Shown here: positions 6,451 through 61,872 of the stretch, one piece after another
Numbering within the stretch: the first letter of the stretch is position 1
Layout of the letters: the number at the start of each line of letters is the position of its first letter
NCBI GenBank assembly: GCA_013214705.1
Contig: JABSRZ010000009.1
Location: 124,001 to 188,000 of the forward strand
DNA length: 64,000 nt
Direction of reading: 5' to 3'
Source of the DNA: Hyphomicrobiales bacterium
GTDB taxonomy: Bacteria > Pseudomonadota > Alphaproteobacteria > Rhizobiales > OSC116
The notes under the pieces: model-generated
The model's database searches: none
What the model saw: only the letters and a program-made list of their open reading frames with translations
Told to the model about the DNA's origin: nothing
Translations under genes and position numbers: made by a program

Positions 6451-6477
6451 TGCGGTATAATTTCCAATTTTGGCAAT

Positions 6478-6506
6478 AAAAAAAGCGGGTCACTTGTGCG
6501 GCCCAC
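6478..6506 (-). terminator. Terminator-like stem-loop in the rimP-nusA leader
   Basis: On the minus strand a GC-rich hairpin (GTGGGCCGC arm, CAA turn, GTGACCCGC arm, one mismatch plus wobbles) is followed directly by seven U residues. The U-run ends 27 bases before the rimP start. Placed in the leader, it would act as an attenuator of the rimP-nusA-infB operon, or as the end of a short upstream transcript. Attenuation is inferred; only the hairpin and U-run are visible. Confidence 0.5.
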
Positions 6507-6594
6507 TCATATTATTTATGAATTTTATTAGTATGTACTCCGATTTCCCGCAGAATGCAAGGATTAATCTCGGCAATTTCTGAGCATTCGTCTG

Positions 6595-6910
6595 CCACCC
6601 TGAGTTTGCTGAAAAGCTGTGTTGTGGAAATTTTGTGCAGGAGTTTCAGCCACGGAACTGGCCGTTGATGTTGTTAAGACATTGACAGTTGGCGCTCCTG
6701 CCTAAGCTCTGGAAGTCTGCATTTATACGTTCACTCTGCTTATGCAGCGTAGCGTAGCTACTCGCACTGCGCTTCGCTCACTGTTGGCACTTGCGTGCGA
6801 ACCCGCACACTGGCGTGTGCGTCTTCTAGCCTCCGCGCGGTGGCCTCAAAGCACGCCTTACGGCTTCTGGGCGCACTCGCCGAATCGCAGGGATTCTTGG
6901 GGGCAGATGG
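6595..6910 (+). repeat. Full B-C copy of the mosaic intergenic repeat
   Basis: Module B runs from CCACCCTGAGTTTGCTGAAA (about 6596) to CATTTATACGTTC (about 6733). It matches 38221-38362 and 61604-61716. Module C follows, from the CACTGTTGGCACTTGCGTGC run (6779) to GGGATTCTTGGGGGCAGA (6907), and matches 38371-38497 at roughly nine bases in ten. C contains a perfect hairpin CGCACAC-TGGC-GTGTGCG (6804-6821). No gene is credible here; the apparent ORFs are the repeat itself read in both directions. Confidence 0.85.
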
Positions 6911-6946
6911 AAATTCTGCACAAGTTTGCCGAGTATCATGGAAAAT

Positions 6947-8021: not shown

Positions 8022-8112
8022 CTTAGCAAGCGCGCGGAGGCGTGCGCCCGCGCCCGAGCGGAGCGACAAAGTGCCCTTGGGGTGCAGGTAAGCGAACAAA
8101 GTGAGCGCTAAC
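8022..8112 (+). repeat. Tail-only copy of repeat module A (copy 6)
   Basis: It matches the 3' half of the copy before ccoS (60341-60425): GCAAG, a variable hairpin, GCGCCCGCGCC, then an AAGTGCCCTTGGGGTGCAGG run and a GTGAGCG end. Hairpin 3 here is GCGCGC-GGAG-GCGTGC (8030-8045, one G-U wobble), a fifth different stem around the same GGA loop. Hairpins 1 and 2 are missing. Confidence 0.75.
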
Positions 8113-37953: not shown

Positions 37954-37977
37954 AAATACCAACTTAGCGTGGAAAAA

Positions 37978-38070
37978 AGGGCGAGCCAACTTGTTGGCGA
38001 ACTTGCCGATTGAGGCCGCCCGTTAGGGCGTAGCAAGCTTTCGGAGAAAGCGCACGCAGTGCTAAGCGAA
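37978..38070 (+). repeat. Palindromic repeat module A, copy 3
   Basis: Hairpin 1 is GCCAAC-TT-GTTGGC (37985-37998). Hairpin 2 is GCCC-GTTA-GGGC (38018-38029). Hairpin 3 is GCTTTC-GGA-GAAAGC (38037-38051), followed by the shared GCACGCAGTG tail. It begins 25 bases after the PBP activator stop, in the same direction, so its hairpins probably lie in that mRNA's 3' end. Confidence 0.9.
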
Positions 38071-38073
38071 AAA

Positions 38074-38160
38074 CGCGAGCCAATTTATTGGCGAACTTGG
38101 CCATTGAGGCCCGCCCGTTAGGGCGTAGCTAGAGAGCGGAGCGAACGCACGCAGTGCCAC
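38074..38160 (+). repeat. Palindromic repeat module A, copy 4 (tandem with copy 3)
   Basis: Hairpin 1 is GCCAAT-TT-ATTGGC (38079-38092). The linker pairs as GGCC-ATTGA-GGCC (38099-38111). Hairpin 2 is GCCC-GTTA-GGGC (38113-38124). The region of hairpin 3 (38131-38146) pairs only imperfectly around the GGA, and then GCACGCAGTG. It lies in direct tandem with copy 3. Confidence 0.88.
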
Positions 38161-38185
38161 TAGCCCGCCGATAGGTGGGCGTAAA

Positions 38186-38500
38186 AATGCAAACTTCCAG
38201 AGCTCAGGCAGGAGCGCCACCCATGAGATTGCTGAAAAGTTGTGATGTTGAAATTTTGCGCTGGAGTTTCAACTTATGAGCCAACCTTTGAGGCTGTAAA
38301 GACACAACCAGTTAGCACTCCTGCCGACTTTACGGGTACTCCCATTTATACGTTCGGCTTAAGCCTCACTGTTAGCACTTGCGTGCGAATCCACACACTG
38401 GCGTGTGCGTCTTCTAGCCTCCGCGCGTTGGCCACATATTTTGCCTTGCGGCTTCTGGGCGCACTCGCGGAATCGCAGGGATTCTTGGGGGCAGACTGAA
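38186..38500 (+). repeat. B fragment joined head-to-head to a full B-C copy
   Basis: 38186-38220 is an inverted fragment of module B (TGCAAACTTCCAGAGCT, then CAGGCAGGAGCGCCA). At the following CCC begins a full copy of B in the other orientation (38221-38362, CATGAGATTGCTGAAAAG to CCCATTTATACGTTC). Module C follows (38371-38497, ending GGGATTCTTGGGGGCAGA). The whole 37954-38512 gap is therefore repeat DNA. The copy ends about a dozen bases from the hemW stop. Confidence 0.85.
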
Positions 38501-38512
38501 GCTCCGAATTTG

Positions 38513-57871: not shown

Positions 57872-60130
57872 ATGTTAGCCTGTTGCCCGGTCGATTATGC
57901 CCTAAATGACATCACCGAAATGCGCCAATCTAAAGGTTTAGACTGGGCGTCAGAACTGGTCGCCGACCCTAGCCCATGGGTAACCTATGACGATAATGGC
58001 TTGGCGCAATTAGACATTTTAGTGCCAGAGGTCTATTGCGCGGCTTGCATCGGGGCGCTAGAAAGTAATTTCAAAAAACTAAAATCGGTAAAATATGCGC
58101 GCTTAAACCTAACCCGCAAACGCTTGTCTATCAGGTGGGATGAGCGCTTAAACACAGCTCACGATATGATGGTGGTGCTAGAATGGCTCGGCTATCATGG
58201 CCAACCATTTGATGCCAGCCAGTTTAACCATAGCCTAATCGATAACCAGCAAAAGAAACTACTCACCTCATTAGGTGTGGCGGGCTTTGCCGCCGCTAAT
58301 GTCATGCTGTTGTCGGTGTCAATTTGGTCAGGGGCGGACGAGGCGACCCGTAATTTTTTCCACTGGATTTCCGCCTTAATTGCCTTGCCGGCTTTGGCCT
58401 ATAGCGGTCAGGTATTTTTTAAATCGGCATTTAGGGCGCTGCGGGTCGGAAGCCTAAATATGGATGTGCCGATAAGTTTGGCCATTATTCTGGCGCTTTA
58501 TATCAGCCTTAGCGAAACCATTGCCGGCGGCGCCCATGCTTATTTTGATGCCGCCATCACCTTGGTATTTTTCTTACTTGTCGGACGTTATTTAGACATT
58601 TCGATGCGCCAACGCGCCCAGAGCGCGGCCGAGCAATTGATGAGCATGCTGGCCACCGCCGCCACGCTTATTTTGCCCGATGGCAGCCGCAAATCGATCA
58701 ATTTAAACGATGTGAAATTAGCCGATCATATATTTGTCGCCATTGGCGAAAAAATCCCGGTTGATGGAAAAATTATCGGCGGCAAAAGCGACCTCGACAA
58801 TGCGTTTTTAACCGGCGAATCCATACCCGAAACCGTTTCTATCGGTCAGGTCATCCATGCTGGCGGCATTAATTTAACCGGCGCGTTGACCTTAGAAGTT
58901 ACCGCAGTCGGCAAAGATACTTTGCTAGCCGACATCATTCGGTTGATGGAACAATCCGAGCGCACCGCCGCCAAATATGTGCGTTTGGCCGACAGAGTGG
59001 CCAAATTATACGCCCCCATTGTGCATATATTGGCCGCAGTCACTTTGTTGGGGTGGATGTTGGTTGGCAAAAATTTTGATGATAGCCTATTCATCGCCAC
59101 CTCGGTGCTCATCATCACCTGCCCTTGCGCATTGGGGTTGGCCGTACCGGCGGTGCAAGTGGTGGCATCGGGCATATTGTTGCGCTTGGGCATATTGCTA
59201 AAAAATGGTGAAGCGTTGGAAAAATTGGCCGATATTGACATAGTGATATTTGATAAAACCGGCACACTCACCATGGGGCAACCCAAATTGACCAATGGCC
59301 AGCACATAACCGATGCCGATATAAAAATTGCCGCCTCAATGGCGGTTAACAGCCAGCATCCGCTGTCGCAAGCCATTGTCAAAGCCGCCACCAACCGCGG
59401 TTTAAAATTCAGCACCAATGACAATGTGCAAGAGCTGGTCGGGCAGGGGCTGATCGATAAACGGTCAAACATAAAGCTTGGCAACCAACAATTTGCCGCC
59501 GCAGCTTTAACCAATGAAGCTTCCAATACCAGTGGTGAATTTTACCTTTCAGTTCCGGGTAAATTACCCATACGGTTTAAATTCGAAGATGCCCTACGCC
59601 CAGATGCCAAACAAGTTGTAGATGGTTTTAAACAAGCTGGTATAGACACGATGATCCTATCTGGCGACCACCCAGCGGCAGTTAAAAACATTGCAGATAA
59701 GTTGCAAATCAAAAACTGGCAGGCCAGTTGCACCCCACAAGACAAATTAAACTGGGTCGAGCAATGCCACAAAAACGGCAAAAAAACCTTTGTCATTGGC
59801 GATGGTACCAATGATGCCCCAGCGCTAACCGCCGCCTATGTGTCTATGTCGCCGGGCAGCGCCAATGATGTCAGTCAATTATCTGCCGACCTAATTTTCC
59901 AAAGCCAAAGCCTCAAAGCCGTATATAAAGTCTGGCAAGTGGCCAAATTTTCACGCGGGCTCATCAAACAAAATATCGGCTTGGCGCTAGGCTATAACGC
60001 CATCGCCGTGCCGTTTGCCATTTTAGGTTTCGCCACCCCATTTTTCGCCGCAATCGCCATGTCAACCTCGTCAATGATCGTAACCCTAAACGCTCTCCGC
60101 CTGCGCCTAAAGGAAAATAGCCTAAAATAA
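57872..60130 (+). CDS. ccoI: Copper-transporting P-type ATPase CcoI/FixI
   Basis: CcoI pumps copper across the inner membrane for insertion into the oxidase. The 752-residue P1B ATPase has an N-terminal metal-binding domain with VYCAACIGALE, then eight membrane segments. The transport motif TCPCALGLA is near residue 417, phosphorylation DKTGTLTMG near 461 and GDGTNDAPAL near 644. The N-terminal CC pair (MLACCP) is an extra possible copper site. It starts 8 bases after ccoH. Confidence 0.96.
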   Translation: MLACCPVDYALNDITEMRQSKGLDWASELVADPSPWVTYDDNGLAQLDILVPEVYCAACIGALESNFKKLKSVKYARLNLTRKRLSIRWDERLNTAHDMMVVLEWLGYHGQPFDASQFNHSLIDNQQKKLLTSLGVAGFAAANVMLLSVSIWSGADEATRNFFHWISALIALPALAYSGQVFFKSAFRALRVGSLNMDVPISLAIILALYISLSETIAGGAHAYFDAAITLVFFLLVGRYLDISMRQRAQSAAEQLMSMLATAATLILPDGSRKSINLNDVKLADHIFVAIGEKIPVDGKIIGGKSDLDNAFLTGESIPETVSIGQVIHAGGINLTGALTLEVTAVGKDTLLADIIRLMEQSERTAAKYVRLADRVAKLYAPIVHILAAVTLLGWMLVGKNFDDSLFIATSVLIITCPCALGLAVPAVQVVASGILLRLGILLKNGEALEKLADIDIVIFDKTGTLTMGQPKLTNGQHITDADIKIAASMAVNSQHPLSQAIVKAATNRGLKFSTNDNVQELVGQGLIDKRSNIKLGNQQFAAAALTNEASNTSGEFYLSVPGKLPIRFKFEDALRPDAKQVVDGFKQAGIDTMILSGDHPAAVKNIADKLQIKNWQASCTPQDKLNWVEQCHKNGKKTFVIGDGTNDAPALTAAYVSMSPGSANDVSQLSADLIFQSQSLKAVYKVWQVAKFSRGLIKQNIGLALGYNAIAVPFAILGFATPFFAAIAMSTSSMIVTLNALRLRLKENSLK

Positions 60131-60189
60131 TCCTAGTTGCGTTAAAAATATCTTGCGGCTTCAACACAGAGTAATATATTAAAGGGATA

Positions 60190-60280
60190 AAAAGGGCGAG
60201 CCAACCCGTTGGCGAACTTGGCCATTGAGGCCCGCCCGTTAGGGCGTAGCAAGCAAACGGAGTTTGCGCACGCAGTGTTG
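60190..60280 (+). repeat. Palindromic repeat module A, copy 5a
   Basis: Hairpin 1 is GCCAAC-CC-GTTGGC (60200-60213). The linker pairs as GGCC-ATTGA-GGCC (60220-60232). Hairpin 2 is GCCC-GTTA-GGGC (60234-60245) and hairpin 3 is GCAAAC-GGA-GTTTGC (60253-60267), then GCACGCAGTG. It begins about 60 bases after the ccoI stop, inside the cco operon. Confidence 0.9.
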
Positions 60281-60288
60281 GTAAAAAA

Positions 60289-60434
60289 GGCGAGCCAACT
60301 CGTTGGCGAACTTGCCGACTGAGGCCGCCCGTTAGGGCGTAGCAAGTAAACGGAGTTTGCGCCCGCGCCGTGAGCGAAGCGAGGAAGTGCCCTCGGGGTG
60401 CAGGGTTAAACATTATGAGCGTAGCGAGTAAAAA
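60289..60434 (+). repeat. Palindromic repeat module A, copy 5b, abutting ccoS
   Basis: Hairpin 1 is GCCAAC-TC-GTTGGC (60294-60307). Hairpin 2 is GCCC-GTTA-GGGC (60327-60338). Hairpin 3 is GTAAAC-GGA-GTTTGC with one T-G (60346-60360). A long tail shared with 8041-8110 follows (AAGTGCCCTCGGGGTGCAGG run), then ATGAGCGTAGCGAGTAAAAA and the ccoS ATG. Together with copy 5a it fills the 304-base ccoI-ccoS gap. Confidence 0.9.
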
Positions 60435-60611
60435 ATGAGCGGATTATTATTTCTAATTCCAGTGGCACTATTTCTAGGCGCAATCGGCCTCGTTGGCTTT
60501 TTGTGGACATTGCGCAATGGCCAATATGATGACATTGAGGGCGCGTCGATGCGCATATTAGACACCCAATATGATGATAAACCCGACGATTCAGATGCAA
60601 CAGATGACTAA
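60435..60611 (+). CDS. ccoS: cbb3 oxidase maturation protein CcoS
   Basis: A 58-residue frame beginning MSGLLFLIPVALFLGAIGLV with a single membrane helix, then the CcoS signature FLWTLRNGQYDDIEGASMR and an acidic tail. CcoS is needed to insert haem b and copper into CcoN. It normally follows ccoI directly; here two repeat copies lie between. No clear ribosome-binding site is present, only GCGAG from the repeat six bases before the ATG. Confidence 0.93.
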   Translation: MSGLLFLIPVALFLGAIGLVGFLWTLRNGQYDDIEGASMRILDTQYDDKPDDSDATDD

Positions 60612-60651
60612 CCTATGCATAAGATTAAAATCACACCAAAGGTAGCAGATT

Positions 60652-61572: not shown

Positions 61573-61603
61573 CGTGTGCACTAGTAGAAGCGCTACCCTT
61601 GAG

Positions 61604-61745
61604 TTTGTTGAAAGGCCGTGATGTTGAAATTTTGTGCAGCAGTTTCTGACACTAAGCCAGCATTTGATGCTGTATAAACATAGACAATTGGCGTTCCTGC
61701 CAGCTCAGGGGTGCTCGTATTTATACGTTCCCACTGCCTGTCGGC
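61604..61745 (+). repeat. Module B of the mosaic repeat, copy 3
   Basis: It runs from ACCCTTGAGTTTGTTGAAA to TATTTATACGTTC (ends about 61726) and matches the B copies at 6596 and 38221. Module C is not present after it. Downstream is a short hairpin GCACAT-TATGTGC (61780-61792) but no gene until 61940. On the minus strand this copy reads ETAAQNFNITAFQQTQG, parallel to the other two. Confidence 0.8.
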
Positions 61746-61872
61746 ATTGTCACTTTTAGCTCTCGCGCTCACGATATGGCACATTATGTGCGCGCGGCGT
61801 TTGTGGCCTGTAATTAAAACACCTACCAGCCTGCCGACGCGGCGGGTTCTACCAACAACGGTTTACTTTATA

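Follow-up and report, generated by a model that had tools for sequence, protein, structure and literature searches.

Why are ccoI and ccoS, consecutive genes of a cbb3 oxidase operon, separated by 304 nt of repeat-bearing DNA in this marine bacterium, and what follows for the expression of ccoS? The locus was explored in a window of 64,000 nt (G000:C45:124001-188000; the whole stretch of DNA that was analysed) from a 3.5-Mb genome that is 98.9% complete. The operon comprises, in order, an fnrL-like gene, ccoN, ccoO, a small ORF, ccoP, ccoG, an ORF, ccoI, the gap and ccoS, after which comes a LysR gene. The small ORF between ccoO and ccoP and the ORF between ccoG and ccoI occupy the places of ccoQ and ccoH; both assignments are by position only, without an NCBIfam match. 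On the plus strand, ccoI (57872-60130, stop codon at 60128-60130) encodes a Cu-transporting P-type ATPase that matches heavy-metal P-type ATPase models, and ccoS (60435-60611, ATG at 60435) encodes an intact cbb3 oxidase assembly protein that scores 76.8 bits against the NCBIfam ccoS model (cut-off, 28.35). From the ccoI stop to the ccoS ATG, the gap covers 60131-60434. Our reading, which we hold with a probability of roughly 0.7, is that the gap arose by a lineage-specific insertion, in which a REP-like mosaic hairpin repeat confined to the genus entered an ATGA start/stop overlap, with an independent start of ccoS as the consequence.

The original prediction placed two repeat copies in these 304 nt, and the coordinates held when recomputed. 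It had also treated the gap as repeat with the ccoS ATG right behind it; the two copies stood, but the first 57 nt (60131-60187) are without a match in the other genome stretches compared, and 60358-60405 is a further module. All features of the gap are given on the plus strand. Copy A1 (60188-60281) begins with an A-run, followed by four hairpins located by a short-loop stem search: GCCAAC-CC-GTTGGC (60200-60213), GGCC-ATTGA-GGCC (60220-60232), CGCCC-GTTA-GGGCG (60233-60246), and GCAAAC-GGA-GTTTGC (60253-60267). Copy A2 (60282-60366) contains GCCAAC-TC-GTTGGC (60294-60307), CGCCC-GTTA-GGGCG (60326-60339), and AAAC-GGA-GTTT (60348-60358). The repeat blocks of A1 and A2 are 45 and 42 nt long, are spaced by 93-94 nt and are 89-95% identical. 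The further module recurs at 8043-8088 of the window and in locus L093, and more weakly in L074 and L080. The A-rich end of the insert (60406-60434) now forms the ccoS leader and carries a weak GAG Shine-Dalgarno-like site at approximately 60426-60428.

The junction was compared among relatives. A CcoI-like match was found in 39 of 41 genomes and loci were obtained for 30, both counts including the genome of the window, which left 29 relatives' loci. Two of these have no ATG start for ccoS and were left out of the gap measurement. An ATG-started ccoS lies at −4 to +24 nt from ccoI in 25 of the 29 (−4 nt in 15, −1 nt in 4, and 0, 1, 4, 6, 11, and 24 nt in one each), in agreement with the premise of the original prediction that the two genes usually adjoin or overlap. 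In all five congeners (G001, G002, G003, G004, and G005, OCS116-type Hyphomicrobiales), the genes overlap by 4 nt (ATGA). The G004 junction reads ..AAA TCC TTA TGA, and that of the window reads ..AAT AGC CTA AAA TAA, followed by the insert and then by AAAAAATGAGC. The insertion point is right before ATGA, and ccoI now stops at a TAA that belongs to the insert side of the junction. CcoI has thereby gained one lysine codon (C-terminal end ..ENSLK* in the window versus ..EKSL* in G003 and G004), and both reading frames remain intact around approximately 310 nt of extra DNA. The congeners are distant, with CcoI identities to the window of 74 to 78%, so we infer the exact letters of the ancestral junction.

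Since the ATGA overlap is present in all five congeners, this sequence comparison indicates that the insertion is specific to this lineage and took place after the operon had formed, as had been predicted for its age. No congener has a wide gap without repeats. It is very improbable that the ancestor already had a wide gap and that the relatives closed it: wide gaps do occur in 2 of the 29 relatives' loci, but both lie in other families and they differ in content, the one of 83 nt having its own GGAGG and the one of 565 nt holding an ORF. Moreover, the spacing is −4 to +24 nt in all five congeners and in most other families, and repeated independent removal down to an exact ATGA is implausible.

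The inserted repeat belongs to a dispersed family. A 25-base core pattern, allowing up to 3 mismatches, matched 6 times in the window, with 0 matches expected. The repeat was located by blastn at approximately 50 places in the 3.5-Mb genome, and an iterated nhmmer profile gave 54 hits in the genome stretches examined, merged to 39 clusters. Ten other 20-kb stretches gave two weaker hits, both in one stretch, so the copy count of the family is a lower bound. A blastn search matched the repeat in every one of the 6 genomes of the genus and in none of 35 genomes from the order's other families. Scoring took in at most 19 candidates for each genome; the matches per congener, among those listed, were 22 in G001, 18 in G002, 14 in G005, 4 in G004, and 3 in G003. 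As far as these sequence searches reach, the family is genus-restricted. Viral contigs held no exact match and plasmids no match. The family is undescribed as far as the literature was searched, and no OCS116 publication on repeats was found by title.

Three other junctions have also received the family: def-fmt, glcD-GNAT, and cytochrome c-dehydrogenase. The glcD-GNAT gap is 133 nt with the repeat in the genome of the window versus approximately 1 nt in G001 and G005, which makes it a second near-empty site. At def-fmt, related elements with differing first hairpins are carried by G000 and G001, while G003 and G004 are repeat-free. At the cytochrome c-dehydrogenase site, such hairpins are present in G000, G001, and G005, where their paired stems differ from one genome to the next; G003 and G004 have none in the stretch compared. 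All 39 clusters lie clear of predicted genes. Their gene setting is convergent in 19 cases, tandem in 19, and divergent in 1, versus 14, 72, and 24 in a baseline of gaps no shorter than 50 nt, taken from the window and the ten 20-kb stretches, with gene calls from a codon-usage script (convergent enrichment, Fisher P = 2e-5).

This organization is REP-like, and by its sequence features the repeat is filed among the dispersed palindromic repeats. Like REPs, it is a palindromic sequence that occurs in many intergenic copies and preferentially at the 3′ ends of genes, and part of PMC3733652 reports the same gene-setting distribution for REPs. The likeness to REP, BIME, and REPIN elements, as far as portions of PMC3733652 and PMC3116915 describe them, extends to short hairpins in dozens of intergenic copies, mostly between unidirectional or convergent genes, and to subfamilies with alternative complementary stem residues. 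In contrast with the 20- to 40-nt single stem-loop or inverted doublet of REPs, the unit here is approximately 90 nt long, has four hairpins plus further modules, and forms direct tandem pairs. In 39 of 44 copies, a GTAG (the tag of GTAG-tagged REPs) stands ahead of the last hairpin, spaced a few nucleotides from the stem. The stems that vary seldom contain G-T pairs. The Y1 transposase RAYT (PF01797) had 0 matches in G000, G001, G002, and G003, with 5 of 14 control genomes positive. On this result and on the four-hairpin architecture, the repeat is not assigned to the REP/RAYT system. No inverted pair of the MITE type flanks the units within 60000-60600. Two RVT_1 hits, on contigs G000:C19 (L117) and G000:C20 (L116), had pointed to retroposition; their frames resemble eukaryotic LTR-retrotransposon polyproteins by eye, and the idea was dropped because the contigs were read as probable assembly contamination.

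Among other palindromic elements, the RIME and ABC elements of Sinorhizobium, which we take from titles to be of the same order, are presumably also mosaics of palindromic modules; the likeness to RIME is one of description, and blastn gave no match to the repeat in any of the 35 genomes from other families. Fungal mitochondrial double-hairpin elements are organellar, mobile-looking, and have exchangeable paired stems with constant loops. Rickettsia palindromic elements (RPEs) are alphaproteobacterial palindromic repeats that insert in frame inside genes, unlike the present clusters, none of which lies in a predicted gene. A CGTC tag is described for RPEs in part of PMC3733652.

Module A, to which both copies belong, is only a component of longer mosaics, which fill gaps as large as approximately 1 kb (L067-L092; window 38157-38512 and 6451-6940). 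At least three further modules recur by eye, one around AACGTATAAATGCAGACTTCCAGAG..GGCAGGAGCGC and its inverse, one around GCCTCCGCGCGTTGGCC..GGGCGCACTCG, and one around CGCTCACGGCC..GGTTCAAAAAACACATGAG. A second copy class starts with CGAACCAACGAAGTTGGTGAG, has no 5′ A-run, mostly follows TTTCCC or CTCCC, and has its own first hairpin, ACCAAC-GAA-GTTGGT (L071, L074, L075, L077, L080, L082, L089, and L092). At L093 2101-2221, a longer, AT-rich palindrome with a different sequence takes the place of the second hairpin. Downstream of the LysR gene, 61593-61860 of the window looks by eye like a degraded mosaic module (TTTATACGTTC, GGCGTTCCTGCC), and a short minus-strand ORF (61593-61784) lies within this region.

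The two copies in the gap could have come from one local duplication or from separate sources. The A1 core (alignment columns 9 to 83) is identical to the def-fmt copy, and A2 has its nearest copy in L074 (97.1% identity), A1 and A2 being 91.5% identical to each other. In 4 of 4 same-strand tandem pairs (window 37974-38156 and 60189-60366, L068 7183-7370, and L073 7190-7379), each copy resembles one from another locus more closely than it resembles its partner. Since the members are nearer to outside copies, the A1/A2 pair looks like a combination of copies from two sources and not like the product of a local duplication, though gene conversion could lead to the same picture of identities. All four pairs combine one GGCCA-type with one GCCGA-type copy, which is suggestive only, given that these classes account for 23 and 21 of 44 copies. 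The repeat DNA was probably copied in from other genomic copies and not produced by local tandem duplication. A-runs flank the repeat copies, and the congeners are too diverged to define a target duplication.

Strong hairpins had been predicted for the gap. This proved right for local pairing, where short-loop stems amount to 49 bp against a shuffled mean of 21.7 bp (0 of 300 shuffles as high), but not for the global RNA fold, which has a z of −1.63 and is equalled by 5 of 100 shuffles. No Rfam model scored above its gathering score, the best being sX5 on the minus strand (19.4 bits, gathering score 50, E 0.23).

To follow the stems across copies, a 44-copy alignment was used; the other 10 of the 54 hits, which were incomplete or carried an insertion, were left out. 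All counts come from these 44 copies, and a smaller alignment of 22 of them did not enter. RNAalifold kept only 4 pairs of this alignment, with a covariation term of 0.03, and did not recover the drawn stems. This shortfall was put down to a form of the last hairpin that is not palindromic, AGAGCGGAGCGAA (13 copies with point variants), and because of it the structure was drawn from the sequences and then counted. With 17 pairs drawn across the 44 copies, pairing holds in 88.5% of 732 cells. Covariation scores 0.179 versus 0.075 (standard deviation, 0.009) in shuffles, none of 500 being as high, and it is at most 0.067 when the structure is slid by 1 to 3 columns; the score leans towards this structure, which was drawn from the same sequences. 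Pairs with a double change number 6, an unexceptional count reached by 60 of 500 shuffles, and further pair types number 13, below the shuffles, 497 of 500 of which reach that number. The last hairpin, with its GGA-type loop, has 14 arm types by our grouping, 13 of them fully paired; the shuffles for arm types ignore relatedness and dinucleotides. The GGA and GTTA loops are constant, and both stem arms change together, among copies as well as between species at orthologous sites.

When stems are kept paired by selection on RNA, compensatory changes usually go by way of G-U pairs. The alignment has 61 double-changed cells versus 4 G-U cells (1 in helix 1 and 3 in helix 3). The rarity of G-U together with the whole-stem differences points to stem exchange or correction at the DNA level, so that the sequences favour exchange of stems in DNA over RNA selection as the source of the varying stems. 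That the hairpins act as a functional post-transcriptional element, lowering CcoS relative to CcoI or shielding the upstream cco mRNA from 3′ exonucleases, is consistent with the excess of short-loop hairpins, with the stem covariation, and with the proposal, in part of PMC3733652, that REPs, which lie mostly downstream of genes, work as RNA. The weak global fold, the 4 pairs kept by RNAalifold alone, and the scarcity of G-U cells argue against it. In addition, the 39-cluster list has no evident orientation rule of the repeat relative to neighbouring genes, and the repeat has nothing cco-specific, since its family sits at dozens of sites. We consider this explanation unlikely. Of comparably low probability is a broader proposal, that the family spreads and evolves by swapping entire hairpin stems in DNA. 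It would then consist of mobile or self-correcting palindromes templated by single-stranded DNA without a RAYT, whose insertion into ATGA overlaps would rewire translational coupling, sometimes with a minigene of their own.

For ccoS, the insertion has a clearer consequence than any hairpin effect: it is predicted to do away with start/stop coupling and with the Shine-Dalgarno site upstream. The congeners have the ccoS Shine-Dalgarno site inside ccoI, which the insert here separates from ccoS; the best duplex is −3.1 kcal/mol in the window versus −5.1 to −11.6 kcal/mol in the congeners. The predicted cost of opening the ccoS start region is 7.2 kcal/mol versus 10.1 to 17.4 kcal/mol. With the start thus predicted to be more open than in the congeners, and with a weak global fold, the proposed lowering of CcoS or stabilization of upstream mRNA by strong hairpins is not supported in that form. 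Reporter data for Escherichia coli and Haloferax volcanii, in the portion of PMC10666635 concerned, show that gaps of approximately 20 to 38 nt nearly abolish termination-reinitiation. By analogy, coupling from ccoI onto ccoS across 304 nt has very probably been lost, the insertion itself being what would have abolished it.

The gene would still be cotranscribed. Terminator-like sites between 59900 and 60700 numbered 0 on the plus strand and 2 on the minus strand (1.6 in shuffles). A separate ccoS promoter within the insert, which would make the repeat irrelevant, is improbable: the AT-rich left part has loose promoter-like spacing by eye only, but a sigma-70-type consensus scan found no plus-strand site in 60131-60434, its only hit (60604-60631) lying downstream of the ccoS start. 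On this view, ccoS is now probably initiated independently and less efficiently on read-through mRNA, at a weak but open, unstructured A-rich site.

Local coupling might instead be restored by a candidate 7-codon minigene, MSVASKK* (60415-60438, plus strand), whose TGA overlaps the ccoS ATG (ATGA); ribosomes loading at the 3′ end of the insert would re-initiate on ccoS. Its frame and overlap are present, it has a Shine-Dalgarno-like duplex of −6.3 kcal/mol approximately 15 to 23 nt upstream, stronger than that of ccoS, and minigenes can raise translation of the following gene by coupling, as stated in part of PMC8708949. The idea is nevertheless doubtful. An ATG-started frame ends there in a fraction of 0.23 of shuffled inserts, again ignoring relatedness and dinucleotides; the other genome stretches compared contain nothing that matches the tail (60406-60434), and the other junctions inspected show no such overlap by eye.

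Independent initiation of ccoS is thus the preferred outcome of the insertion. Both CcoI and CcoS matter for oxidase activity, which deletion of CcoS abolishes in Campylobacter jejuni, according to a section of PMC8267372. The same source describes ccoG, ccoI, and ccoS as scattered in the C. jejuni genome, which suggests that tight coupling is not a general need. The repeat is most likely selfish or neutral and would be tolerated, as both reading frames survived. The insertion is real and for the most part ordinary; what is unusual is how cleanly the states before and after it can be compared. This natural pair, ATGA in five species versus 304 nt of hairpin repeat in a sixth with the frames intact, lets one ask how much coupling matters for an oxidase assembly factor, and it bears on how palindromic repeats colonise and reshape operons.
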